64,000 nucleotides of DNA. Origin: Chloroflexota bacterium. Lineage in GTDB: Bacteria > Chloroflexota > UBA6077 > FW602-bin22 > JAMCYS01. The stretch covers positions 1 to 64,000 of the forward strand of contig JAMCYS010000023.1 in NCBI GenBank assembly GCA_023473795.1. Reading direction: 5' to 3'. The position numbers were made by a program, and so were the translations under genes. The notes beneath the pieces were generated by a model. That model did no database searches, was not told where the DNA came from, and was given only the letters and a program-made list of their open reading frames with translations. Positions within the stretch are counted from its first letter, which is position 1; every line of letters starts with the position of its first letter. Below, piece by piece: positions 9,771 through 62,576 of this stretch.

Positions 9771-10991
9771 TCACGCCCCGGCAAGCACAGCTCCGCCGCC
9801 CACCAGGCCGCCGGCCTTGACCACGGCGCGCACGGCGTTCAAGGCCCGAACATCACTCAAGGCATCCCCAGCCACCAGCAGCAGGTCGGCCTGCCTGCCC
9901 ACTTCCAGCGCGCCCACCTGGTCCGCTAGACCGAGCAGCCGGGCAGCCTCGCTCGTCGCCGATCGCAGTGCTTGACGAGCTGTGTAGCCGTTCTCGACCA
10001 TCAGCTCTACTTCCAGGGCCAGGCCGCCGTGTGGGTTGTAGGGAGTACTGGCATCCGTGCCAGCCGCAATGCGCGCGCCGGCCTCCGCCGCCTGCTTGAA
10101 GCTGGCGCAGTGCCTTTCATAGACCTGCCGGGCCTTGTGCACGGCGTAGTCGGCCATCTGACCGTGGGAGGCATTGCGCACGATCTGGGTGACGGCGGCC
10201 AGGGTAGGAACGTAGTAGGCGCCACTCTTCAGCAGCAGCTCGATACACTCGTCGTCCAGGAGACAGCCATGCTCGACGCTGTCAATCCCTGCCCTCAGGG
10301 CGTTCTTCACGCCCGCCGTGCCGATGGCGTGTGTTGCCGTACGCTTGCCGGCATTGTGGGCCTCTTCAACACCCGCCCTCATTTCGGTCTCGGATAGGCC
10401 AATGCCGCCGACTTCCAAACCGGGCGTCAGAACGCCACCCGTGGCCATAAGCTTGACCAGGTCTGCGCCAAGTTTGAGCTGTTCCCGCGCCGCCTTTCGC
10501 ACCTCGTCCGGGCCATCGGCCTCGCGGCCAATGAACCAGCCGTGGCCGCCTGTCATACAGATGGCGCTGCCCGCGGCCAGGACGCGCGGTCCCGGCACCA
10601 GGCCCTGAGCGATGGCCTTCGCCAGGTCTATCACGATGCCCGGCTTGGTCGACCCCATGTCGCACACCGTCGTCTCGCCTGCCTGCAAGGTCAGCCGCGC
10701 GTTCCGGGCGGCACGCAGAGTCGCCAAAGCGGGGCTGTCGGCCAACGCCACTGCCGGCAAGAAGCGCGGGTCGGGATCGGCCGATAGATGTACGTGGCAA
10801 TTGATGAGCCCGGGCAGCAGCGTCTGACCCGTGCCGTCGATCACGAGCCCCCTGTCCCAACCGACCGGCGCGTCGCGCGCGGGCCCCAGCCAGGCGATCC
10901 TCTCTCCTTCCACCAGAACGATGGCCTCCCCGAAAGGCAGCGTATCCTTGCCGTCAAATACAAGCGCACCCGCGATGGCCAGCTGGCCCAC
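9771..10991 (-). CDS. amidohydrolase (imidazolonepropionase/prolidase-like)
   Basis: Metal-dependent hydrolase of 406 residues with a split beta-sandwich and TIM barrel. GLINCHVHL supplies the HxH metal ligands, GADLVKLMATGG the lysine that is usually carboxylated, THAIGTAG and SVEHG the two further His ligands, and AGTDA the catalytic Asp. Relatives cleave Xaa-Pro dipeptides or cyclic amides; the substrate here is unknown. GTG at 10991 is chosen because GGAGGT lies six bases upstream. It follows the UroD-like gene after a strong hairpin. A 45-bp copy of its 5' end occurs in the tandem duplication at 12594-12638. A homologue lies at 41485-42714. Its closeness to the peptide-type transporter may reflect a peptide-degrading role. 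Confidence 0.9.
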   Translation of the reverse strand: MGQLAIAGALVFDGKDTLPFGEAIVLVEGERIAWLGPARDAPVGWDRGLVIDGTGQTLLPGLINCHVHLSADPDPRFLPAVALADSPALATLRAARNARLTLQAGETTVCDMGSTKPGIVIDLAKAIAQGLVPGPRVLAAGSAICMTGGHGWFIGREADGPDEVRKAAREQLKLGADLVKLMATGGVLTPGLEVGGIGLSETEMRAGVEEAHNAGKRTATHAIGTAGVKNALRAGIDSVEHGCLLDDECIELLLKSGAYYVPTLAAVTQIVRNASHGQMADYAVHKARQVYERHCASFKQAAEAGARIAAGTDASTPYNPHGGLALEVELMVENGYTARQALRSATSEAARLLGLADQVGALEVGRQADLLLVAGDALSDVRALNAVRAVVKAGGLVGGGAVLAGA

Positions 10992-11016
10992 CGATGAACC
11001 TCCCAAGACAACGGTT

Positions 11017-11048
11017 GGGCCCGCCCAGTCGTCATTCTTGGCGGGCCC
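11017..11048 (-). terminator. hairpin between UroD-like and amidohydrolase genes
   Basis: GGGCCCGCC (11017-11025) and GGCGGGCCC (11040-11048) form a perfect nine-pair GC-rich stem with a 14-base loop, just after the stop of the UroD-like gene. There is no T-tract on the minus strand, so termination may be partial. An identical copy lies at 12664-12695. Confidence 0.5.
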
Positions 11049-11072
11049 CCGAATGCTAGGACGCGCGGGGAT

Positions 11073-12116
11073 TCACTCCGCGAGAACCCCGGCGATCACC
11101 CCCAGGCTCCGCTCCAGAGCCTCGACTGGGGCGTCCTCTGTTACGCTGATGGCAAACCCGCGCTTGCTGCCGGCCTGCGACAGCAACTCGCGCGTGTGTT
11201 CAGCCACGACCTCTGGCGGCTCGATGTGCATCGAACTGGTGAAGTTGATCCAGAGGGCCTTATCCGGCCAGGCCTGCCGCGCCTCCGCCATAGATACGTC
11301 GCCCATCGGCGGCGGCGTGATCGCTTCGACGATGTCGAACTGAGACTCGGCGATCAAGGGGACCAGGGACTGCAGGCGGCCGTCCATGTGCACTGCGAGC
11401 TTCTTGCCCGTGCCAGACAGCAGGTTGTGGATGTAGGCATACTGGGGCATCAGGTAGCGCTGGTAGCGCTCTCGACCCACCACCACGCTGCTGACGTTGT
11501 CGCCGAGCTGCAGCAGTGGCGCCGGGCAGCCGGCGGCGAACTCGTACATCTCCCGGTAGCGCTGCAGCATGACCTCGTGTAGGGAATCGAAGAGGTCGCG
11601 CCGCTCGTAGTAGTCGAGCGCGAAGCGCTCCATACCCATCATCTGGTACAACATCTCCTGCACCGGCAGCTTGGCGACGCGTACCAGGCAGATGCCGTCA
11701 GGCCCCAGGCGGCGGTCGTACTCGCTAATGACTGCATAGTTGTCGGTGTAGACAGCATCCTTGAGGTAGAACTCCATTACCCGGTAATCATCCGGGCCTT
11801 TGATGAAGTGCTCGCGAATCCAGTTGGACGTGTCGTAAGCCCCCTCCGGCTCGAGGGTCTGGTAGACCTCGCCCACGGGCGTCTCGATCGTGCGGCGCAG
11901 CAGCCTGCGACCGTCCTCCTGGTATTCCCGGGTGCTGATTTCGACTTCACGGTACTGCGTGCGGTGGGCCGGTTCGCGGTGGATTAGACCCACCCCCATC
12001 TCCCGCAGGCGGCGCTCTGTCGTACCGCGTGGCAGCATCCAGTCGTAAATTGTCAGCGGCACGCGATCTGGCTCTTGCCAATTCATCGCGGCCAGAAGGC
12101 GCTCCCTAATGTCCAC
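11073..12116 (-). CDS. uroporphyrinogen decarboxylase-like protein, copy A
   Basis: A 347-residue protein of the UroD/MtaA superfamily (TIM barrel). The start is the GTG at 12116, preceded by GGGGAGG; the longer open frame upstream is read-through of purH sequence in another frame. The N-terminus RERLLAAMNWQEPDRVPLTIYDW is typical of the UroD-like methyltransferase branch. The position corresponding to the zinc-binding HxC of MtaA/CmuA reads HMDGR, without Cys, and the Arg-rich substrate pocket of true HemE is not evident, so neither haem synthesis nor a zinc-dependent corrinoid methyl transfer can be claimed. It is identical to the protein encoded at 12720-13763. Confidence 0.85.
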   Translation of the reverse strand: MDIRERLLAAMNWQEPDRVPLTIYDWMLPRGTTERRLREMGVGLIHREPAHRTQYREVEISTREYQEDGRRLLRRTIETPVGEVYQTLEPEGAYDTSNWIREHFIKGPDDYRVMEFYLKDAVYTDNYAVISEYDRRLGPDGICLVRVAKLPVQEMLYQMMGMERFALDYYERRDLFDSLHEVMLQRYREMYEFAAGCPAPLLQLGDNVSSVVVGRERYQRYLMPQYAYIHNLLSGTGKKLAVHMDGRLQSLVPLIAESQFDIVEAITPPPMGDVSMAEARQAWPDKALWINFTSSMHIEPPEVVAEHTRELLSQAGSKRGFAISVTEDAPVEALERSLGVIAGVLAE

Positions 12117-12144
12117 AGTATGCCTCCCCAGTGCGGAGTGCCGC

Positions 12145-12593
12145 CTAGTGGCGGAAGTGGCGGTGACCCGTAAACACCATGGCCAGGTGGTGCCGGTCGG
12201 CCATGCGGATGATATCCTCGTCCCTGATAGAGCCGCCGGGCTGGATGATGGCCGTGACCCCGCCCACGGCAGCCTCTTCCACCCCATCGGGCTTGGGGAA
12301 GAACGCATCGGAAGCCATGACACTGCCCACCGCGCGGTCACTCGCTTTACGGAGGGCGATTTGCACGGAATCGACTCTGCTCATCTGGCCGGCCCCAATG
12401 CCTGCGGTAGTGAGCCGTTGCGCGAGGACTATGGCATTGGACTTGACGAACTTGACCACCCGCCAGGCGAAGATGAGGTCGGTCAGCTCGTCCAAAGTGG
12501 GCTCGCGCTGGGTTACGACCTTCATCCCCTCTTCGTCGAGCGAATGTGTGTCGAAAGTCTGCACCAAGAAACCGCCGTGAACGCGCTTGAAGT
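12145..12593 (-). pseudogene. purH: purH 3' fragment created by tandem duplication
   Basis: The sequence encodes the last roughly 148 residues of PurH, identical to the end of the intact gene at 13792-15342. The fragment begins at the duplication junction, where the upstream frame runs into a TGA a few codons before the purH sequence. It lacks the whole cyclohydrolase domain and most of the transformylase domain, so it cannot replace PurH. Confidence 0.9.
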
Positions 12594-12638
12594 CTTGCCG
12601 TCAAATACAAGCGCACCCGCGATGGCCAGCTGGCCCAC
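12522..12638 (-). pseudogene. amidohydrolase 5' stub fused out of frame at the duplication junction
   Basis: The duplicated ribosome-binding site and GTG start of the amidohydrolase direct 15 codons ([15 protein letters not shown]) that pass at 12594 into purH sequence in the wrong frame and stop at 12522 after 38 residues. It retains a good ribosome-binding site and might be translated, but no function is expected. Confidence 0.75.
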
Positions 12639-12663
12639 CGATGAACCTCCCAAGACAACGGTT

Positions 12664-12695
12664 GGGCCCGCCCAGTCGTCATTCTTGGCGGGCCC
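12664..12695 (-). terminator. hairpin after UroD-like copy B
   Basis: Identical copy of the nine-pair hairpin at 11017-11048. It follows the stop of the second UroD-like gene and may limit read-through into the purH fragment and copy A. Confidence 0.45.
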
Positions 12696-12719
12696 CCGAA
12701 TGCTAGGACGCGCGGGGAT

Positions 12720-13763
12720 TCACTCCGCGAGAACCCCGGCGATCACCCCCAGGCTCCGCTCCAGAGCCTCGACTGGGGCGTCCTCTGTTACGCTGATGGC
12801 AAACCCGCGCTTGCTGCCGGCCTGCGACAGCAACTCGCGCGTGTGTTCAGCCACGACCTCTGGCGGCTCGATGTGCATCGAACTGGTGAAGTTGATCCAG
12901 AGGGCCTTATCCGGCCAGGCCTGCCGCGCCTCCGCCATAGATACGTCGCCCATCGGCGGCGGCGTGATCGCTTCGACGATGTCGAACTGAGACTCGGCGA
13001 TCAAGGGGACCAGGGACTGCAGGCGGCCGTCCATGTGCACTGCGAGCTTCTTGCCCGTGCCAGACAGCAGGTTGTGGATGTAGGCATACTGGGGCATCAG
13101 GTAGCGCTGGTAGCGCTCTCGACCCACCACCACGCTGCTGACGTTGTCGCCGAGCTGCAGCAGTGGCGCCGGGCAGCCGGCGGCGAACTCGTACATCTCC
13201 CGGTAGCGCTGCAGCATGACCTCGTGTAGGGAATCGAAGAGGTCGCGCCGCTCGTAGTAGTCGAGCGCGAAGCGCTCCATACCCATCATCTGGTACAACA
13301 TCTCCTGCACCGGCAGCTTGGCGACGCGTACCAGGCAGATGCCGTCAGGCCCCAGGCGGCGGTCGTACTCGCTAATGACTGCATAGTTGTCGGTGTAGAC
13401 AGCATCCTTGAGGTAGAACTCCATTACCCGGTAATCATCCGGGCCTTTGATGAAGTGCTCGCGAATCCAGTTGGACGTGTCGTAAGCCCCCTCCGGCTCG
13501 AGGGTCTGGTAGACCTCGCCCACGGGCGTCTCGATCGTGCGGCGCAGCAGCCTGCGACCGTCCTCCTGGTATTCCCGGGTGCTGATTTCGACTTCACGGT
13601 ACTGCGTGCGGTGGGCCGGTTCGCGGTGGATTAGACCCACCCCCATCTCCCGCAGGCGGCGCTCTGTCGTACCGCGTGGCAGCATCCAGTCGTAAATTGT
13701 CAGCGGCACGCGATCTGGCTCTTGCCAATTCATCGCGGCCAGAAGGCGCTCCCTAATGTCCAC
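12720..13763 (-). CDS. uroporphyrinogen decarboxylase-like protein, copy B
   Basis: A 347-residue protein identical to that encoded at 11073-12116, with the same GTG start and ribosome-binding site. This copy keeps the natural arrangement: it starts 28 bases after the purH stop and is therefore probably the distal gene of the purine operon. If the duplication is an assembly artefact, only one of the two genes exists. Confidence 0.85.
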   Translation of the reverse strand: MDIRERLLAAMNWQEPDRVPLTIYDWMLPRGTTERRLREMGVGLIHREPAHRTQYREVEISTREYQEDGRRLLRRTIETPVGEVYQTLEPEGAYDTSNWIREHFIKGPDDYRVMEFYLKDAVYTDNYAVISEYDRRLGPDGICLVRVAKLPVQEMLYQMMGMERFALDYYERRDLFDSLHEVMLQRYREMYEFAAGCPAPLLQLGDNVSSVVVGRERYQRYLMPQYAYIHNLLSGTGKKLAVHMDGRLQSLVPLIAESQFDIVEAITPPPMGDVSMAEARQAWPDKALWINFTSSMHIEPPEVVAEHTRELLSQAGSKRGFAISVTEDAPVEALERSLGVIAGVLAE

Positions 13764-13791
13764 AGTATGCCTCCCCAGTGCGGAGTGCCGC

Positions 13792-15342
13792 CTAGTGGCG
13801 GAAGTGGCGGTGACCCGTAAACACCATGGCCAGGTGGTGCCGGTCGGCCATGCGGATGATATCCTCGTCCCTGATAGAGCCGCCGGGCTGGATGATGGCC
13901 GTGACCCCGCCCACGGCAGCCTCTTCCACCCCATCGGGCTTGGGGAAGAACGCATCGGAAGCCATGACACTGCCCACCGCGCGGTCACTCGCTTTACGGA
14001 GGGCGATTTGCACGGAATCGACTCTGCTCATCTGGCCGGCCCCAATGCCTGCGGTAGTGAGCCGTTGCGCGAGGACTATGGCATTGGACTTGACGAACTT
14101 GACCACCCGCCAGGCGAAGATGAGGTCGGTCAGCTCGTCCAAAGTGGGCTCGCGCTGGGTTACGACCTTCATCCCCTCTTCGTCGAGCGAATGTGTGTCG
14201 AAAGTCTGCACCAAGAAACCGCCGTGAACGCGCTTGAAGTCTAGACCGTCCGGCCCGCCAAAGCGAGCGGCCGGCACTGGCTCGGCGGCGCCGATCTGTA
14301 GCACTCGCAGATTTTTCTTCGCGCGCAAAATCGACAGCGCCTCCGGCGAGTAGCCGGGAGCGATCACGTCCTCGTAGAACGTCTGGGCGATCTCGCTCGC
14401 CGTCGCCGCGTCCATTTCCCGGTTGACCCCAATGGCCCCGCCAAAAGCGGACACTGGGTCGGCGCCGTGTGCCCGCCGGTAGGTTTCCAACAGGCTGTCG
14501 CCGCAGGCCAGGCCACAGGGATTGGTGTGTTTGATTATGGATACCGCAACCGAGGTGAAGTCCCGCACGCAGTTCCAGGCGGCGTCGAGGTCCATGGTGT
14601 TGCAGAAGGAGAGGGCTTTGCCATTGAGCTGTTGCGCCCCGGCCAGCCCCGTCAGGGCGCCGCCGCGCACGGCCTCGGCGTAGAACGCCGCCTTCTGGTG
14701 GGGGTTCTCCCCGTAACGCAGGTCCTGGGCCTTCTCCAGCGCGATGGTAAACTCCTGCGGAAAGAGTTCATCCGCCGGGCGCAGGTAGGTGGCGATCTGG
14801 GTATCGTAAATGGCCACGTGCTGGAAAGCCTTCGCGGCCAGCCGGCGCCTCATCTCCTGGTCGGGGTCTCCGTGGCTTAGCGCCTCCAGAACCGACGAGT
14901 AGTCGGCAGGATCGACTACCACCAGAACGTCCGCATAGTTCTTGGCGGCGGCGCGGATCAACGTGGGTCCGCCGATGTCGACGTTCTCCAGCGCCTCCTC
15001 CCGCGTCGCCCTAGGCTTGCTGACCGTGGCCAGGAAAGGATACAGATTCACGACGACGATGTCAATCGTGCCGATCCGTCGCTCGGCCAATTGAGCCATG
15101 TGCTCAGGCACCTGCCGCCGGGCCAGAATGCCGGCGTAGACGATGGGATGGAGGGTCTTGACCCTGCCCTCCAGGATTTCCGGAAAACCGGTGAGCTCAG
15201 AGATGTTGTGCACCGCTATGCCGGCCTGGGCCAGCTCCTTCGCCGTGCCGCCAGTGGAGTAGATCTCCACCCCCAGTTTGGAAAGGCCCTCGCCCAGCTC
15301 GGCAATGCCCACCTTGCTAGAGACGCTCAGAATAGCCCTCAC
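13792..15342 (-). CDS. purH: bifunctional AICAR formyltransferase/IMP cyclohydrolase
   Basis: Carries out the last two steps of de novo IMP synthesis. The 516 residues contain an N-terminal IMP cyclohydrolase (MGS-like) domain (about 1-150, with STGGTAKEL and GRVKTLHP) and a C-terminal AICAR transformylase domain with RYGENPHQKAAFY and SIIKHTNPCGLA. The lysine-histidine pair IKHTNPCG is the transformylase active-site motif. The GTG start overlaps the purN stop (GTGA), showing translational coupling. The last 449 bp are repeated in the adjacent tandem duplication. Confidence 0.97.
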   Translation of the reverse strand: MRAILSVSSKVGIAELGEGLSKLGVEIYSTGGTAKELAQAGIAVHNISELTGFPEILEGRVKTLHPIVYAGILARRQVPEHMAQLAERRIGTIDIVVVNLYPFLATVSKPRATREEALENVDIGGPTLIRAAAKNYADVLVVVDPADYSSVLEALSHGDPDQEMRRRLAAKAFQHVAIYDTQIATYLRPADELFPQEFTIALEKAQDLRYGENPHQKAAFYAEAVRGGALTGLAGAQQLNGKALSFCNTMDLDAAWNCVRDFTSVAVSIIKHTNPCGLACGDSLLETYRRAHGADPVSAFGGAIGVNREMDAATASEIAQTFYEDVIAPGYSPEALSILRAKKNLRVLQIGAAEPVPAARFGGPDGLDFKRVHGGFLVQTFDTHSLDEEGMKVVTQREPTLDELTDLIFAWRVVKFVKSNAIVLAQRLTTAGIGAGQMSRVDSVQIALRKASDRAVGSVMASDAFFPKPDGVEEAAVGGVTAIIQPGGSIRDEDIIRMADRHHLAMVFTGHRHFRH

Positions 15343-43294: not shown

Positions 43295-43349
43295 AGCGGG
43301 AGGGAGGCAGAAGGCGAAGCGTGACTCGGTTCGTCCCGCCGACCGCATG

Positions 43350-43358
43350 TGCTATAAT
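43350..43358 (+). promoter_or_regulatory. extended -10 promoter of the ferredoxin-AOR operon
   Basis: TGCTATAAT is an extended -10 element; the hexamer 17 bases upstream (TTCGTC) is weak, as often in extended -10 promoters. It lies about 56 bases before the ferredoxin start codon and is divergent from csoR. Confidence 0.55.
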
Positions 43359-43413
43359 GCGGCGCGGTTGCGCCAAGGGGACTATTCCCTTAGACATGGC
43401 TAGGAGGGGCAGC

Positions 43414-43797
43414 GTGAGGGTCGATGCCACGGCTAGCCGTTGCACCGGGTGTAAGCTCTGCCAACTGGCGTGCGCGCTGCACCAGTTCGGTGAGAACAAC
43501 CCCAAGAAGACGGCCATATTGATAACCAGCGATCTCCTGAACACCGGCCACTACCGGGTTGCCGTTTGCGACCAGTGTGGGCTCTGCGAGGAACTGTGCC
43601 CGGCAGGGGCGGTGAGCAAAGTGGATGGGGCCTATGTGGTCGACCCGGAAGAGTGCACGTACTGCTACATCTGCGTCAATGAGTGTCCCCAGGGCGCAAT
43701 GCTGGTCCCATCCGGCAAGCACACCCCAGTCAAGTGCATTTCCTGCGGCGATTGCGTGGAGTTGTGCCCGACCTCGGCGCTGGCCATGGTGGAGTAG
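43414..43797 (+). CDS. polyferredoxin with four 4Fe-4S-type cysteine sets
   Basis: A 127-residue iron-sulfur protein. Four Cys groups are visible: CTGCKLCQLAC, CDQCGLCEELCP, CTYCYICVNECP and CISCGDCVELCP, enough for up to four [4Fe-4S] clusters. Such HycB-like proteins commonly serve as electron partners of tungsten oxidoreductases. GTG at 43414 is preferred because AGGAGGGG lies four to five bases before it; an ATG at 43396 is the alternative. It is 12 bases before the AOR gene, so it should carry electrons to or from AOR in the cytoplasm. Confidence 0.9.
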   Translation: MRVDATASRCTGCKLCQLACALHQFGENNPKKTAILITSDLLNTGHYRVAVCDQCGLCEELCPAGAVSKVDGAYVVDPEECTYCYICVNECPQGAMLVPSGKHTPVKCISCGDCVELCPTSALAMVE

Positions 43798-43809
43798 GAG
43801 GAACTCATA

Positions 43810-45654
43810 GTGAACGGATACGCCGGCAAGATACTGCGTGTCGATCTCTCCACCGGCAAGACCTGGACCGAGCCCGTGGACCCCAAACTGGCGCGCGAAT
43901 ACCTGGGCGGGCGCGGTTTCGCCGCGCGCCTCATCTACGACGAGGTCAAGGGAGCTGAGGCTCTGGGGCCGGACAACCGGTTGGTACTCGCGTCTGGCCC
44001 CTTCGCCGGAGTGTTCCTCCCGGCCGGCGCCAAAGCGACTTTCGCCGCCAAGTCGTCCGCCACCGGACTATACGGTGACGCCAACGTGGGCGGGCACCTC
44101 GCGGCCGAGTTGAAGTACGCCGGCTATGACGCCATTGTCTTCCAGGGCAGTGCCGACCGGCCGGTATACTTGTTCGTCGACGACGAAACGGTCCAGATCC
44201 GAGACGCCTCGCGCCTTTGGGGCAAGGGCGCGATCGAAGCGGAGGTCGCCCTGAAGGACGAGCTGGGCGAGGACTACCAGATCGCCACCATTGGCCCCGC
44301 GGGCGAGAACCTGGTCAAATACGCCTGTGTCGGTCATGACATCGGCCGCCAGGCCGGTCGAACCGGCGCCGGTGCGGTGATGGGTTCCAAGAGATTGAAG
44401 GCGATCGCCGTGCGAGGCAGCCAAACGGTGCCCGTGGCCGACATCGAGGCGCTGCGGCGCATAAGCAAAGAAATGTTCCTCAAAGTCAAGGCAGACCCGG
44501 GGCTGCAGGTCTGGCACGACTACGGCCTCGGCTCGGTCTGCAGTTGGGCGAACTCAATCGGCGCCTTCCCCACGCGCAACTTCTCCTCCGGCTACTTCGA
44601 GGGCATCGACGGCATTGACCACCACGCCATGCGGGAGCGCATCATCGTCGGCAGCAAGGCCTGTTTCGGTTGCCCCATGGCCTGTGGCAAGTTCAGCCGG
44701 GTCAAGGAGAGGGGCGTATGGGTGGAAGGCCCCGAGTACGAAACGACGGCCCTCATCGGAGGTAATTGCGCCCTCAACCGCATCGAGGACGTGGCCTATG
44801 CCAACTACGTTTGCGACGAGCTGGGTTTAGACACCATCTCTGCCGGCAACGTCATTGGCTTCGCTATGGAGTGCTTTCAGCGCGGCGTCATCGACGAGCG
44901 CACCACCGGCGGGCTAGCGGTCCGGTTCGGTGACGTCGAGGCGTTTGTTACCTTGGCGAATCGCATCGCACGCCGAGAGGGCATCGGCGACCTTCTGGCA
45001 GATGGAGTAAAGCAGACGGCGGCGGTCTGGGGCAAGGGATCAGAGTCCTACGCCATCCAGGTCAAGGGGTTGGAGTGGAGCGGCTACGAGTCGCGCGGCG
45101 CTCCCGCGATGATGCTGGCCTATATGACGGCCGACATCGGCGCTCATCATAATAGAGCCTGGGCGATAACCTACGATATCGCCCAGGGGCGGGAGAAGGT
45201 GGAAGGCAAGGCCGCCAAGGTCATCGACTTGCAGCACGTCCGGCCGCTGTTCGATTGTCTGGGGGCCTGCCGCCTGCCGTGGGTCGAAATGGGACTAGAC
45301 CTCAAATACTACGCCGAGCTGTTTCCCGCGGTAACTGGCCTGGACCTGTCGTGGGAAGACCTGCTGCAGGTATCTGAGAGGGTCTACAACCTGACCCGCG
45401 CCTACGCAGTCCGCGAGGTACCGGGGTTCGGGCGTTCGCACGACTATCCACCGGAGCGCTTCATAAGCGAGCCGGTGCCTGATGGCGCCACCGCGGGTAG
45501 TCGCATCCCCCGCGACACTTTGGATGCGCTACTTGACGACTACTACGGGTTGCGCGGCTGGGACAAGACCGGGCGGCCGACGGGTGTGACGCTGCGCCGG
45601 CTCGGGCTTGGCGACGTCGCCGAGGAGTTGGCGGCCCGTGGCCTCGTCGAATAG
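43810..45654 (+). CDS. aor: aldehyde:ferredoxin oxidoreductase, tungsten type
   Basis: AOR-family tungstopterin enzyme of 614 residues, which interconverts aldehydes (or related carbonyl compounds) and carboxylates with ferredoxin. The N-terminal part (KILRVDLSTGKT, LGGRGFAARLIYDEV, KSSATGLYGDANVGG) is the pterin-binding domain. Cys285, Cys288 and Cys292 (CFGCPMAC) with Cys483 or Cys487 (FDCLGACRL) form the [4Fe-4S] site. GTG start at 43810 with GGAGGA upstream. The gene is flanked by a polyferredoxin and a MoaD-like protein, a common arrangement for this family. The substrate is not predictable. Confidence 0.95.
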   Translation: MNGYAGKILRVDLSTGKTWTEPVDPKLAREYLGGRGFAARLIYDEVKGAEALGPDNRLVLASGPFAGVFLPAGAKATFAAKSSATGLYGDANVGGHLAAELKYAGYDAIVFQGSADRPVYLFVDDETVQIRDASRLWGKGAIEAEVALKDELGEDYQIATIGPAGENLVKYACVGHDIGRQAGRTGAGAVMGSKRLKAIAVRGSQTVPVADIEALRRISKEMFLKVKADPGLQVWHDYGLGSVCSWANSIGAFPTRNFSSGYFEGIDGIDHHAMRERIIVGSKACFGCPMACGKFSRVKERGVWVEGPEYETTALIGGNCALNRIEDVAYANYVCDELGLDTISAGNVIGFAMECFQRGVIDERTTGGLAVRFGDVEAFVTLANRIARREGIGDLLADGVKQTAAVWGKGSESYAIQVKGLEWSGYESRGAPAMMLAYMTADIGAHHNRAWAITYDIAQGREKVEGKAAKVIDLQHVRPLFDCLGACRLPWVEMGLDLKYYAELFPAVTGLDLSWEDLLQVSERVYNLTRAYAVREVPGFGRSHDYPPERFISEPVPDGATAGSRIPRDTLDALLDDYYGLRGWDKTGRPTGVTLRRLGLGDVAEELAARGLVE

Positions 45655-46775: not shown

Positions 46776-46970
46776 GCTCGCGCTAGTCCCTAGTGGCTAG
46801 CTCTGGCGGGCTAACCCTAACGGGTGCCTCCAGGCGGACCACGGTAGACAGGTCGATCGGACTTCCCTAGTAACTGGGAACAGGCGGCCTAATCAATCCG
46901 CACCCGCACAGAGCACGCTGCCCAGCGCGTGGTGTGCATTCAGTCGGGCGGGAAACGAGCGAGGCGGAGC

Positions 46971-47639
46971 TTGCTTTTCTGGCGTAAGGTTTGGGCGATC
47001 CTGTGGAAGGACATTGTCAGCGAGTGGCGCAGCAAAGACATGTCGACTTCCATGTTGGTCTTCGCTCTCATGGCAGTCGTGATCTTCAACTTCGCTTTCG
47101 AATTGCGGGTTGAAAACGTGGCCAACGTGGCGCCAGGCGTGCTCTGGGTCGCGATTTGCTTCGCCGGGGTACTAGGATTGAATCGCTCGCTGATCCTGGA
47201 GAAAGACAGGGGTTGTCTGGAGGGGTTGATGCTCTGCCCGGTGGATCGCAGCGCCATCTACCTGGGCAAGATGCTGGGCAACGTCCTCTTCATGCTGGCT
47301 ATGGAGGTCGTCGTCCTGCCGGTCTTCGCGGTCTTCTTCAACCTACCGGTGTTCACACCCGACCTGTTACTGGTGGTGCTGGTCGGCACGCTCGGCTTCG
47401 CCGGTGTGGGTACTCTGTTCGCCGCCATCGCCGTCAACACCCGAGCGCGCGAAGTGATGTTGCCCGTGCTTCTGTTCCCGGTGGCGATTCCGCTGATTAT
47501 CGCCGCGGTCAAGTCGACCGAGTCAATTCTCACCCCTACCGGTGTCGGCGAAGCGCCGTGGCTGGGTCTACTGGCAGCTTTCGCGGCGATCTTCCTGGTG
47601 GTGGCGACCCTGACCTTCGAGTACGTGCTGGAGGAGTAG
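46971..47639 (+). CDS. ccmB: haem exporter membrane subunit CcmB
   Basis: Integral membrane subunit of the CcmAB(CD) system for cytochrome c maturation, about 222 residues with six spans. The start KVWAILWKDIVSEWRSKD, the segment LNRSLILEKDRGCLEGLMLCPVDRSAIYLGK and the C-terminal spans match CcmB. TTG at 46971 gives the family N-terminus; a GTG at 46929 would add 14 residues. The ATPase CcmA and CcmC, E, F, H are not next to it. The following gene encodes a kinase with a CxxCH motif, which makes the pairing meaningful. Confidence 0.85.
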   Translation: MLFWRKVWAILWKDIVSEWRSKDMSTSMLVFALMAVVIFNFAFELRVENVANVAPGVLWVAICFAGVLGLNRSLILEKDRGCLEGLMLCPVDRSAIYLGKMLGNVLFMLAMEVVVLPVFAVFFNLPVFTPDLLLVVLVGTLGFAGVGTLFAAIAVNTRAREVMLPVLLFPVAIPLIIAAVKSTESILTPTGVGEAPWLGLLAAFAAIFLVVATLTFEYVLEE

Positions 47640-47731: not shown

Positions 47732-49918
47732 GTGCTCGCCGTGGCTAGCTTCCTCAGCGCCAACATGTTCTTGGTCTTCTTCATCTACGGCTTGGCGTTC
47801 TTCATCACAGGCCTGGTCGTCGCGTTGGAGTCACCTCGTTCCAGCGGCCTGCGCCTGGCCAGCAGTCTCTCCTACCTTGCCGTGTTCGGACTGCTTACCG
47901 GTCTGGGTGGCTGGATAGACATGATGCAAGCCGTCCCCGGCCTTACCCCGAGCCCCAGCACGGTGCCCTTCCATCGAATTCAACCGATCAACTGCTTTGC
48001 TTGTCACGCGGACCCCACTCTGCCCGCTGTCGGCACGGGCGGTAGTACCCTCCTAGTCGACACTTTGAAGGTAATCCTGCTGGTTGTGCCTAGCATCAGC
48101 CTGTGCTACTTCGGTGTGCGCCTTGTCGAAAGGGTTGGCGGCGACCGCCGCTTGCGCCTGCTGCCCTTGGGGTTGCTGACGCTCTGGCTCTTGACGGTCT
48201 TCGCGGTTCGGGCCTTGGTCTCCTTCACACCGGAGCAGTGGCTGATCAACGCCGGCATTCTGGCCCGCTACTTTCTACTCCTGCCGGCATCGATCCTCGC
48301 GGCGCACGGTCTGGTGAGAGAGAGGCGCCGATTGCTCAGCTTGGGAGTCCCCCAATTAGCCAGCTCTTGCTCCTGGGCGGCAGGCTTCTTCTTAGTCTCT
48401 GGCATCGCTGGCGGACTGGTCGTGCCGCCAGCCCCCTATCCGCCTGCCGATCTTCTCAACTACTCGACCTTCTTCGCCGTAACCGGCGTGCCGGTGCAGG
48501 TAGTGCGGGCCGGGGCGGCCCTCGCCATCGCGTACTTCCTCGTGCGCGTGCTCCGCGTCTTCGCTGTGGAACACGACCGGCGCCTGGAAGCAGCTGTCGG
48601 GCAGGAGATCAAGGCTCAGCAGGAGACTTTGGCCGCCCAGCGAAGCGCCAGAGAAGCGATTGAGGCGTCGAACCGCGAGCTGGAAGAAAGAGTGAGCCGG
48701 CGCACGCGGGAGCTGGAGGATCGCAATCGTGAATTGGCGGCGCTGAACGCGATCGCCGGCGCCGTCAGCCAATCCGCCAATCTCAACGAATTGCTGCGCG
48801 CTACTCTGGACAAGGTGCTCGGTCTAGTGCACGCCACGACGGGAGCCATCTACTTACTGGATGCCGAACGACAGACGCTGACGCTGGAGGTCCTCTCCGG
48901 CAACGGCCCGTGGCTGGCGGAATCCGGGGCCAAAGTGATGCTGGGCCAAGGCTGCGTTGGCACGGCCGCGGCCGAGGGCCGAACGGTGGTGCTAGCCGCG
49001 GATTCCGGCCGCACTAACGCCGACGTGCCCGGTCAGGCGGTCTGTTTTCCTCTGTTCTCCAAGGGCAAGGTGCAGGGTGTAATGGCCTTGGTGGCTGAGA
49101 GCAGCCAGGGTTTGAGCGCTCAGGAGATGGACATACTGCAAGCCATCGCCAGTGAGGTCGGCGTCGCCACCGAGAACGCCAAGCTGCTGGATCAGGTGCA
49201 GAACCTGGCGGTCTTGGAGGAACGGGACCGCATCGCCCGGGAGATGCACGACGGCCTGGCGCAGGTCCTCGGTTATCTCAACCTGCGTCTACGAGCCGCC
49301 GAGGGAATGCTGGCCCAGGGCGATGGCGTCGCCACTCGGGCCGAAATCGAGCAGGCGGCCTCGGTCACCCAGGAAGCTTACGCGGACGTGCGCGAGGCGA
49401 TACTGGGGCTGCGCACTGCGGTTACACCGCAGCAGGACTTGCTGGCGACCCTGAGCGAGTACCTGCGGAAGTACCGCCAATACAGCCAGGTACCGACCGA
49501 GCTGTCCGCAGACGTGGAGGAGAAGCTGGACCTGCCTCCGGCAGCTGAGATCCAGTTGATTCGCATCATCCAGGAGGCACTCACCAACGTGCGCAAGCAC
49601 GCGCGCGCCAAGCGGGCCTGGGTGCGGGTGACTAGGGTCAGCGACTCAGTCCTGGTGGAAATCGGCGACGACGGGAGGGGTTTCAACACAGTGGCCGAGG
49701 ACGCGAGGGAAGGCCACTTCGGCCTGCAGACGATGAGGGAGCGCGCAGAGAGCATCGGCGGCTCATTGCAGATCGACTCTGCGCCCGGGAAGGGCTCCAG
49801 ACTGTTGGTAACCATACCAATGGCATCTGAAGGAGGGCGACCGCATGGGAACAATCAGAACACTGTTGGTGGACGATCACGTTCTCTTCCGCAGGGGGCT
49901 GGCCTGTCTGCTCTCTAG
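47732..49918 (+). CDS. membrane sensor histidine kinase with CxxCH haem-c motif
   Basis: A 728-residue kinase of the HisKA_3/NarX-like group. The N-terminal 280 residues have about seven membrane spans. The loop after the second span contains NCFACHADP (Cys88, Cys91, His92), a c-type haem attachment motif likely outside the cytoplasm. A coiled coil (about 287-335), a GAF domain (about 340-485), the phospho-accepting His506 in REMHDGLAQVLG and a HATPase domain (IQLIRIIQEALTNVRKHA, GDDGRGF) follow. The frame overlaps the response-regulator gene by 74 bases. GTG at 47732 is the first in-frame start; GTG 47741 is possible. It should sense redox state or a haem ligand. Confidence 0.88.
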   Translation: MLAVASFLSANMFLVFFIYGLAFFITGLVVALESPRSSGLRLASSLSYLAVFGLLTGLGGWIDMMQAVPGLTPSPSTVPFHRIQPINCFACHADPTLPAVGTGGSTLLVDTLKVILLVVPSISLCYFGVRLVERVGGDRRLRLLPLGLLTLWLLTVFAVRALVSFTPEQWLINAGILARYFLLLPASILAAHGLVRERRRLLSLGVPQLASSCSWAAGFFLVSGIAGGLVVPPAPYPPADLLNYSTFFAVTGVPVQVVRAGAALAIAYFLVRVLRVFAVEHDRRLEAAVGQEIKAQQETLAAQRSAREAIEASNRELEERVSRRTRELEDRNRELAALNAIAGAVSQSANLNELLRATLDKVLGLVHATTGAIYLLDAERQTLTLEVLSGNGPWLAESGAKVMLGQGCVGTAAAEGRTVVLAADSGRTNADVPGQAVCFPLFSKGKVQGVMALVAESSQGLSAQEMDILQAIASEVGVATENAKLLDQVQNLAVLEERDRIAREMHDGLAQVLGYLNLRLRAAEGMLAQGDGVATRAEIEQAASVTQEAYADVREAILGLRTAVTPQQDLLATLSEYLRKYRQYSQVPTELSADVEEKLDLPPAAEIQLIRIIQEALTNVRKHARAKRAWVRVTRVSDSVLVEIGDDGRGFNTVAEDAREGHFGLQTMRERAESIGGSLQIDSAPGKGSRLLVTIPMASEGGRPHGNNQNTVGGRSRSLPQGAGLSAL

Positions 49919-50516
49919 CCGTGGGATTGACGTCGTGGGAGAGGCCGGCAGCGGGGCGGAAGCGCTGGAAAAGGCGCGCGAACTCATGCCCGACCTCGTC
50001 CTCATGGACATCCGAATGCCCGTAATGGATGGCTTAGCGGCGACGCGGGCCATCAAGCAAGAGATGCCCTACTTGAGGATTGTGATGCTGACGATCTCAG
50101 ACGACGACGGCGACCTCTTCCAGGCCATCAAGGCCGGGGCACAGGGCTACTTGCTCAAGAACATGGAGCCCGACGAACTGTTCGACATGATCGACGGTGC
50201 CTTCCGCGGGGAAGCGCCCATCTCGCGCTCGATGGCCTCCAAGATACTCGCCGAGTTCGCCAGCCAGTCACAGCGAGATCCACTGCCAATCCCCATGCGC
50301 AGCGCCCTGACATCGCGCGAGACGGAGGTGCTGCAGCTGGTAGCCAATGGCGCCTGCAACCGCGACATCGCGGCGGCGCTCTGCATCAGCGAGAACACGG
50401 TCAAGAACCACCTGCGCAATATCCTGGAGAAACTACATCTCGACAATCGCGTGCAGGCGGTGGCTTTTGCCCTGCGCCAGGGGCTGATCCAGGATCCCAG
50501 TCGTGCCGCAGGCTAG
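49845..50516 (+). CDS. NarL/FixJ-family response regulator
   Basis: Response regulator of 223 residues: receiver domain with Asp9/Asp10 acidic pair, phospho-acceptor Asp55 (LVLMDIRMP) and Lys near 104, then a LuxR-type helix-turn-helix (about 148-210, LTSRETEVLQLVANGACNRDIA...SENTVKNHL). ATG at 49845 follows AAGGAGGG. It is the cognate partner of the haem-motif kinase. The hydrogenase operon begins 250 bases downstream and is a possible target. Confidence 0.95.
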   Translation: MGTIRTLLVDDHVLFRRGLACLLSSRGIDVVGEAGSGAEALEKARELMPDLVLMDIRMPVMDGLAATRAIKQEMPYLRIVMLTISDDDGDLFQAIKAGAQGYLLKNMEPDELFDMIDGAFRGEAPISRSMASKILAEFASQSQRDPLPIPMRSALTSRETEVLQLVANGACNRDIAAALCISENTVKNHLRNILEKLHLDNRVQAVAFALRQGLIQDPSRAAG

Positions 50517-50659: not shown

Positions 50660-50766
50660 GCTGTCAGTACGCCCTGGGCGCGCGGGCGACCCGCGTTCAT
50701 CGGGCCAAGTCAACGCGCGAGGGGTGATTGGGCGCGCGAACGACACCTGGGTTAGCGAGGCTGCAA

Positions 50767-61154: not shown

Positions 61155-62576
61155 GTGGGCAGCAAGATAACCATCGAACCGGTCACTCGTATCGAGGGCC
61201 ACGCCAAGGTAACGATCCACGTCGACGACGCGGGCAAGGTGACCCAGGCGCGGATGCACGTCAACGAGTTTCGCGGCTTCGAGAAGTTCTGCGAGGGCCG
61301 CATGTTCTTCGAGATGCCGCAGATTACGCCGCGCATTTGCGGCATTTGCCCCGTCAGTCACCACCTCACCGCGGCTAAGGCCTGCGACGCCGTGCTCGGC
61401 GTCACCATTCCCCGGCCGGCGGCCCTCATTCGCGAACTCATGCACATGGGCCAGTATATTCAGTCACATTCGATGCACTTCTTCCACCTGGCGGGCCCCG
61501 ACCTGGTGTTCGGCTTCGACGCCCCGCCCGAGCAGCGCAACGTCCTGGGCATCGTCCAGGCCAACCCCGAGCTGGCGATGAAAGCGGTGTGGCTGCGCAA
61601 GTTCGGCCAGGAGATCATCGCCAAGACGGCCGGTCGCCGCATCCACGGTAACGGGGCCGTGCCGGGTGGCGTCAACAAGGTCATCACTCCGAGCGAGCGA
61701 GAGGAGATGCTGAAGGGGATCCCGACCGCCCTCTCGCACCTTTCCGAGGGCATCGCTATCATCCGTGCCTGGGCAGAGGCCAACCAGAGCACGGTCGAGG
61801 AGTTCGCCAACTTCGACTCTGGCTACCTGGGGCTGGTACAGCCGGACGGCGCGCTGGAGTTGTACGACGGCAGGCTACGCCTGGTTGGCAAGAAGGGCGA
61901 GGTTCTGGAAGAACAGCGAGACCCGGCCGACTACCTGTCGTTCATTGGCGAGAAAGTCGAACCATGGTCGTACCTGAAGTTTCCCTTCTACAAGGCGCTC
62001 GGTTACCCGGAGGGCTCCTACCGGGTAGGGCCGCTGGCGAGGCTCAACGTGGCCAGCAGAATCACCACCCCCCAGGCGCATCAGGAATGGGAGCGCTACC
62101 GCTCCGTGAAGCACGGCGAGCCTATCACGGGCTCGCTCTACTACCATTACGCCCGCCTAATCGAGGCTGTCTACGCGGTCGAGCGAGCGGAGCAAATCCT
62201 GGCGGACCCGGATATCCTCTCCAACGACTTACTGGCGGAGTCAGACCACTACAACGAACAGGGGGTTGGCTGCATAGAGGCGCCGCGCGGCACCCTGCTG
62301 CACCATTACTGGGTGGACAGGGACGGCAAGCTAACTGGGGTGAACCTCATCGTCGCCACCGGGCACAACAATATCTCGATGAACAGGGCCGTGCAGTCGG
62401 TCGCCGAGCGTTATGTCGATGGCTCACACCTGACTGAGGGTATGCTCAACCGGGTAGAAGCGGCCATTCGCTGCTATGACCCCTGTCTCTCTTGCTCGAC
62501 CCACGCCATCGGCCGCATGCCGCTGGCCGTCGAACTGCACGGTCCAAACGGCCTGTTGCAGAGGGTGGAGCGCTAG
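61155..62576 (+). CDS. hoxH: [NiFe] hydrogenase large subunit, HoxH type
   Basis: Catalytic subunit of 473 residues. The L1 motif [12 protein letters not shown] (Cys62, Cys65) and L2 motif DPCLSCSTH (Cys444, Cys447) bind the Ni-Fe site. After His450 there is a 23-residue tail, the part removed by the endopeptidase (encoded at 50767). Both motifs and the tail ALGxMPL-like pattern (AIGRMPL) closely resemble NAD-linked HoxH, which indicates group 3d or a near relative. GTG start at 61155 with GGAGGTG upstream. hyp genes for cofactor assembly are not in the window. Confidence 0.97.

Follow-up and report, generated by a model that had tools for sequence, protein, structure and literature searches.

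Does a membrane-bound sensor histidine kinase of a Chloroflexota bacterium carry covalently bound haem on the outer side of the membrane and, if it does, what would such a kinase sense? The question arises from a CxxCH motif encoded in a 64,000-nucleotide stretch of contig JAMCYS010000023.1 (hereafter "the window"), which a first-pass annotation had read as a haem c site in the sensor part of a kinase. Known two-component sensors that bind haem c covalently are scarce, and the examples in two papers on them (PMC12889525, PMC8396549) are built on soluble PAS/Cache-like or phytochrome-like domains. A search of the open-access full-text literature returned no paper uniting histidine kinase, heme, CXXCH and Chloroflexi.

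The kinase itself is conventional in its C-terminal part. Its gene (47732–49918, + strand) begins with a GTG codon 92 bases past a CcmB-like gene and encodes 728 residues arranged as a seven-TM sensor, a linker, and GAF, HisKA_3 and HATPase_c domains, each of the last three above its Pfam cut-off and as originally annotated. The H-box (MHDGLAQ, residues 505–511; 49244–49264, + strand; HisKA_3 52.9 bits) and the ATP-binding motifs are intact, placing the protein among the HisKA_3-type histidine kinases. The end of the gene is overlapped by that of a 223-aa NarL-type response regulator (49845–50516, + strand; Response_reg and GerE domains) in which D55 is present (in VLMDIRM), and a regulator like it occurs in the loci of most haem-bearing relatives described below, both of the closest included. 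Compared with NCBIfam models, the kinase scored 145 of 553 bits for NarQ and 102 of 578 bits for NarX and the regulator 181 bits for NarL, all below cut-off; NarX/NarQ membership of the kinase is ruled out because its full-length match falls short.

The sensor, by comparison with named families, stands alone: for residues 1–276, searches of Pfam, NCBIfam and PDB sequences gave no match. Given 15 homologues as input, AlphaFold2 modelled residues 1–298 (47732–48625, + strand) as a seven-helix bundle (pLDDT 86, pTM 0.83) with TM helices at residues 12–33, 43–67, 103–136, 139–162, 167–203, 207–229 and 255–274, TM7 thus ending at 274. With these seven helices and a sensor-domain profile match (G000, E 8.4e-108, the window sequence itself being a row of the profile), the window kinase belongs to an unnamed seven-TM sensor domain found so far in Chloroflexota kinases, of which we collected 110 distinct examples. 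A Pfam match to Mannosyl_trans4 (23.5 bits vs. a cut-off of 33) was put down to chance. Foldseek comparison of the model with the PDB and viral models gave nothing at E ≤ 0.001; the best resemblance, to GPCR/rhodopsin-like seven-helix proteins, was weak (TM about 0.45), and we claim no homology on that basis. Likewise, no Pfam match to a Cache fold or to PF11845 (DUF3365) appeared at E up to 5, and the absent PF11845 match together with the all-helical TM model rules out membership in sCache_heme.

The orientation of this bundle follows from its charges. In the window kinase, Lys and Arg number 2/5/4/4 in loops TM1–2, TM3–4, TM5–6 and the C-terminal segment vs. 0/1/1/0 in the N-terminus and loops TM2–3, TM4–5 and TM6–7, and over 17 relatives their density is 0.203 inside vs. 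0.032 outside. With the positive charges so distributed and the kinase part inside, the N-terminus and loops TM2–3, TM4–5 and TM6–7 are assigned to the outside. The TM2–3 loop, which holds the motif, is accordingly predicted to be extracytoplasmic by both model and charge counts, rather than cytoplasmic, the placement that would have told against the initial reading. The loop was modelled poorly (pLDDT below 50 at 71–94 and 96–103), so no haem pocket is visible in the model.

Within that loop, between the second and third membrane spans as first noticed, lies the candidate haem c attachment motif CFACH (C88, C91, H92; 47993–48007, + strand), in the window segment HRIQPINCFACH. Of the haem relatives found, the two nearest have an aligned counterpart, as CLSCH in L090 of genome G003 (HQIQPTSCLSCH) and as CFDCH in L199/L219 of genome G429 (HVIQPLNCFDCH), the nearer being 46% identical to the window across this domain. 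The three share the consensus H-x-I-Q-P-x-[NS]-C-[FL]-x-C-H, whose extra His, H81 in the window (codon 47972–47974, + strand), is invariant and sits seven residues ahead of C88. Both the motif and a nearby candidate for the second axial ligand, for which the first-pass annotation had proposed a homologue search, are thus conserved. H81 and H92 are the only histidines in external parts of the window domain, which makes H81 the natural candidate for a distal ligand; M64/M65, where TM2 ends, could serve instead. The kinase is the sole CxxCH carrier in the group of CcmB-like, kinase and regulator genes, and the only other CxxCH among the window's listed ORFs is CAGCH of a hydrogenase small subunit, which we take to be an Fe-S ligand motif.

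Across the family, CxxCH occurs in 15 of the 110 domains (mean 0.01, maximum 1 in shuffled sequences), and its placement is restricted to two external loops: TM2–3 in three members and TM4–5 in 12. None of the 110 domains carries it in both loops, in a membrane span or in an internal loop. Where a CxxC is present, a His directly follows it in 15/16 domains, and the motif is kept across genomes at 37–49% domain identity. An independent AlphaFold2 model of one TM4–5 member (L161) puts its CxxCH between TM4 (109–130) and TM5 (164–197), where short strands lie on either side of the segment. The distal His is not uniform in this group: some members, not all, have a His after TM4 (P-H). A TM2 His (HGxxEW) is kept in 12/12, but haemless members keep it too, so that it gives no evidence of haem ligation and was rejected as the distal ligand. 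In the alignment, TM4–5 haem members show [PA]PQ at the start of TM7 and a His in TM2; the TM2–3 members show PVQ, T/S/N for the TM2 His and G for a nearby Glu. Two further family domains (G042:C116 and G030:C294) lie in 238-aa frames with one internal TAA each, short or broken and apparently without a kinase.

Haem c also needs a maturation system. The gene ahead of the kinase (46929–47639, + strand), annotated initially as ccmB, is a CcmB-like permease by Pfam (128 bits; the sole CcmB match in the genome) but scores only 61 against the NCBIfam ccmB cut-off of 156. With one CcmB, two CcmE and three Cytochrom_C_asm proteins, the window's genome probably has System I. Unlike CcmB, the CcmE and Cytochrom_C_asm proteins are encoded on contigs C70 and C79, and no ccmA was seen beside the CcmB gene. 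Among the 12 further genomes with a haem member, 11 have Cytochrom_C_asm (the one lacking it is 66% complete), as equally do 16/16 genomes with only haemless members; this co-occurrence therefore has no discriminating power. Four family kinases lie within 10 kb of ccm genes vs. ≤0.9 expected (p about 0.013), a pattern noticed post hoc. The window kinase thus shows the features of a c-type haem-binding sensor—CxxCH, a predicted extracytoplasmic side and cytochrome c maturation genes in the host—and, judged from sequence, very probably has haem attached covalently. CxxC plus His can, in other proteins, ligate metals or form disulfides, and the external-loop motif might by analogy hold a metal such as zinc or copper, or form a disulfide with a redox role, with no haem at all. 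We consider this highly improbable, as the His directly follows CxxC in 15/15 although a disulfide would need none, the motif has the haem-c form and lies outside the membrane in hosts with haem-c maturation genes, and in one relative (L130) the segment was lost as a unit.

That relative bears on how the haem site evolved. In a tree of 37 rows, with the haem-loop columns left out, a single subclade (support 93/82) takes in all haem members along with five that are haemless; it contains the TM2–3 trio (93/91), and at least three changes of state are required. Genome G199 encodes the haemless L130 and its haem-bearing paralogue L161, whose domains share 80% identity, and L130 lacks exactly the CxxC-bearing segment found in L161, which we read as a recent loss. 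A clade made up of the 15 haem members alone was rejected by an AU test; in our reading this reflects L130 nested among them, not separate origins. We somewhat favour a history in which haem came to sit in either of two external loops of an ancestral seven-TM receptor, gained twice or relocated from TM4–5 to TM2–3, and in which the family, as part of the same claim, is a membrane-embedded counterpart to sCache_heme.

As 95/110 domains are haemless, the family must also sense something without haem, and the haem could be structural or a relict, the real input being a ligand of the seven-TM domain common to haemless members. Consistent with this, most members lack haem, one paralogue (L130) lost the segment cleanly, and outer-rim residues are common to haem and haemless members in a nine-row alignment (W61, W170, R179, P185, Y244 and Q256, window numbering). 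Yet a relict would be expected to decay, while the motif persists at 37–49% domain identity and, in the window's own group, with an invariant extra His; we regard a structural or relict role as quite unlikely.

We instead think it rather probable that the kinase is a seven-TM receptor with an acquired, covalent external haem c switch, responding to redox state or a small ligand and signalling to the NarL-type regulator; for the window kinase, the attachment of haem, its ligation, the signal and the targets are what we infer. Specifically, the cytochrome c maturation system would join haem to C88 and C91, with H92 as the proximal and H81 as the likely distal ligand. The input would be a redox change of the haem, as electrons pass between it and the respiratory chain outside the cytoplasm, or a small ligand, e.g., NO; either would alter iron coordination, with H81 on or off, and so move the TM2–3 loop relative to the bundle's conserved outer rim. 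TM7 and the coiled linker would relay this movement to GAF/HisKA_3/HATPase, and these in turn would signal to the NarL-type regulator.

We prefer redox to NO as the signal only slightly. The competing view, that the haem is a selective receptor for gas (NO, possibly CO) rather than a redox sensor, with gas displacing H81, has an analogue in P. azotoformans sCache_heme, the closest characterised one fused to signalling modules, whose binding of NO is tight and which makes no stable complex with O2 (PMC12889525), and ligand displacement of the kind suggested for H81 has been proposed for signalling-fused sCache_heme proteins (PMC12889525). In addition, the models that come closest to the kinase core and regulator, albeit with scores under the cut-off, are those of the nitrate/nitrite system NarQ/NarL. 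However, the P. azotoformans protein has a different fold, the NarQ/NarL similarity is limited to kinase core and regulator, and the multihaem cytochromes adjoining several TM4–5 members (6/15 haem members in total have such neighbours) fit redox sensing at least as well. A gas receptor seems to us a rather unlikely reading. The cytochromes themselves are at most weakly special neighbours of haem kinases after controls: haem vs. haemless relatives differed at one flank threshold (p = 0.03) but gave p = 0.08 and 0.12 at others, and the comparison with unrelated GAF-HisKA_3 kinases (7/44) was not significant (p = 0.07).

What the haem switch would control is a separate matter, and the first-pass annotation had pointed to H2 metabolism. 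The hydrogenase cluster, on the same strand as the regulator, indeed starts shortly after it, with a [NiFe]-hydrogenase maturation protease at 50728, and runs to the subunits at 62576. It comprises HycI protease, DRTGG, CBS-HATPase, PHP, NuoE-, NuoF- and NuoG-like genes and small and large subunits, and resembles a multimeric NAD-linked, possibly electron-bifurcating hydrogenase. Specific control of this operon by kinase and regulator, which would be compatible with the haem switch, is suggested by this arrangement of protease, accessory and subunit genes and by L130 (G199; L180, G199:C37 1–17001), which lies between divergent genes for CcmF, CcmE and a 9-haem cytochrome and an HdrCBA-MvhDG cluster that is followed by a hydrogenase large subunit. 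Against it, 211 bases separate regulator and protease gene, and the two cases, noticed after the fact, come from a large set of loci whose flanks were limited. Moreover, neither of the two closest haem relatives has a hydrogenase nearby: a search of G429 at E ≤ 1e-20 gave no relative of the one in the window, and the G003 relative is about 60 kb from the kinase. A link to H2 metabolism may exist, but we judge specific hydrogenase control unlikely. Elsewhere in the window, genes for an Fe-S protein and an aldehyde ferredoxin oxidoreductase (43321–45654) lie upstream of lgt and ccmB, and in L223 and L028, too, AOR-family relatives adjoin kinases of the family. At 10947–12893 a stretch of 300 bases occurs twice without a difference, the copies being 1647 bases apart, and here two 422-aa ORFs (11073–12341 and 12720–13988, − strand) have identical beginnings; the repeat is either a tandem duplication or an assembly artefact.

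Among known systems, the closest named models for this kinase core and regulator are NarX/NarQ–NarL, though the likeness is confined to the C-terminal part and does not cover the sensor. For the sensor, the nearest parallel is sCache_heme, in which a Cache domain becomes a haem c sensor through an inserted CXXCH (PMC12889525) and which (DUF3365/Tll0287; Geobacter GSU0582 and GSU0935) shares with the window kinase a CXXCH added to a pre-existing extracytoplasmic sensor domain that is fused to signalling modules, with covalent haem c on the outer side (PMC12889525, PMC8396549). There, however, the domains are soluble Cache domains and the haem has been shown, whereas here the carrier is a helical seven-TM domain whose loops hold the motif, at two alternative positions across the family, and the haem is only predicted. 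Desulfovibrio DcrA likewise has periplasmic haem c, with proposed sensing of redox potential and oxygen (PMC8396549), but is a chemotaxis transducer rather than a histidine kinase with seven TM helices. In Methanosarcina acetivorans, MsmS (MA4561) is a sensor kinase among the c-haem two-component proteins, with a PHY-like photoreceptor-type architecture and an HK-like output (PMC8396549), though without a seven-TM external CxxCH loop. The window kinase joins these c-haem sensors in kind and, by inference, works similarly. A seven-TM version with two alternative loops and a natural haemless paralogue offers a case in which the gain of a redox cofactor by a receptor can be put to the test, and suggests how little-cultivated Chloroflexota may monitor external electron-transfer chains: where the sensors of those papers rely on soluble or phytochrome-like domains, in these bacteria a membrane receptor that already existed has probably become a redox or gas sensor through the addition of haem.
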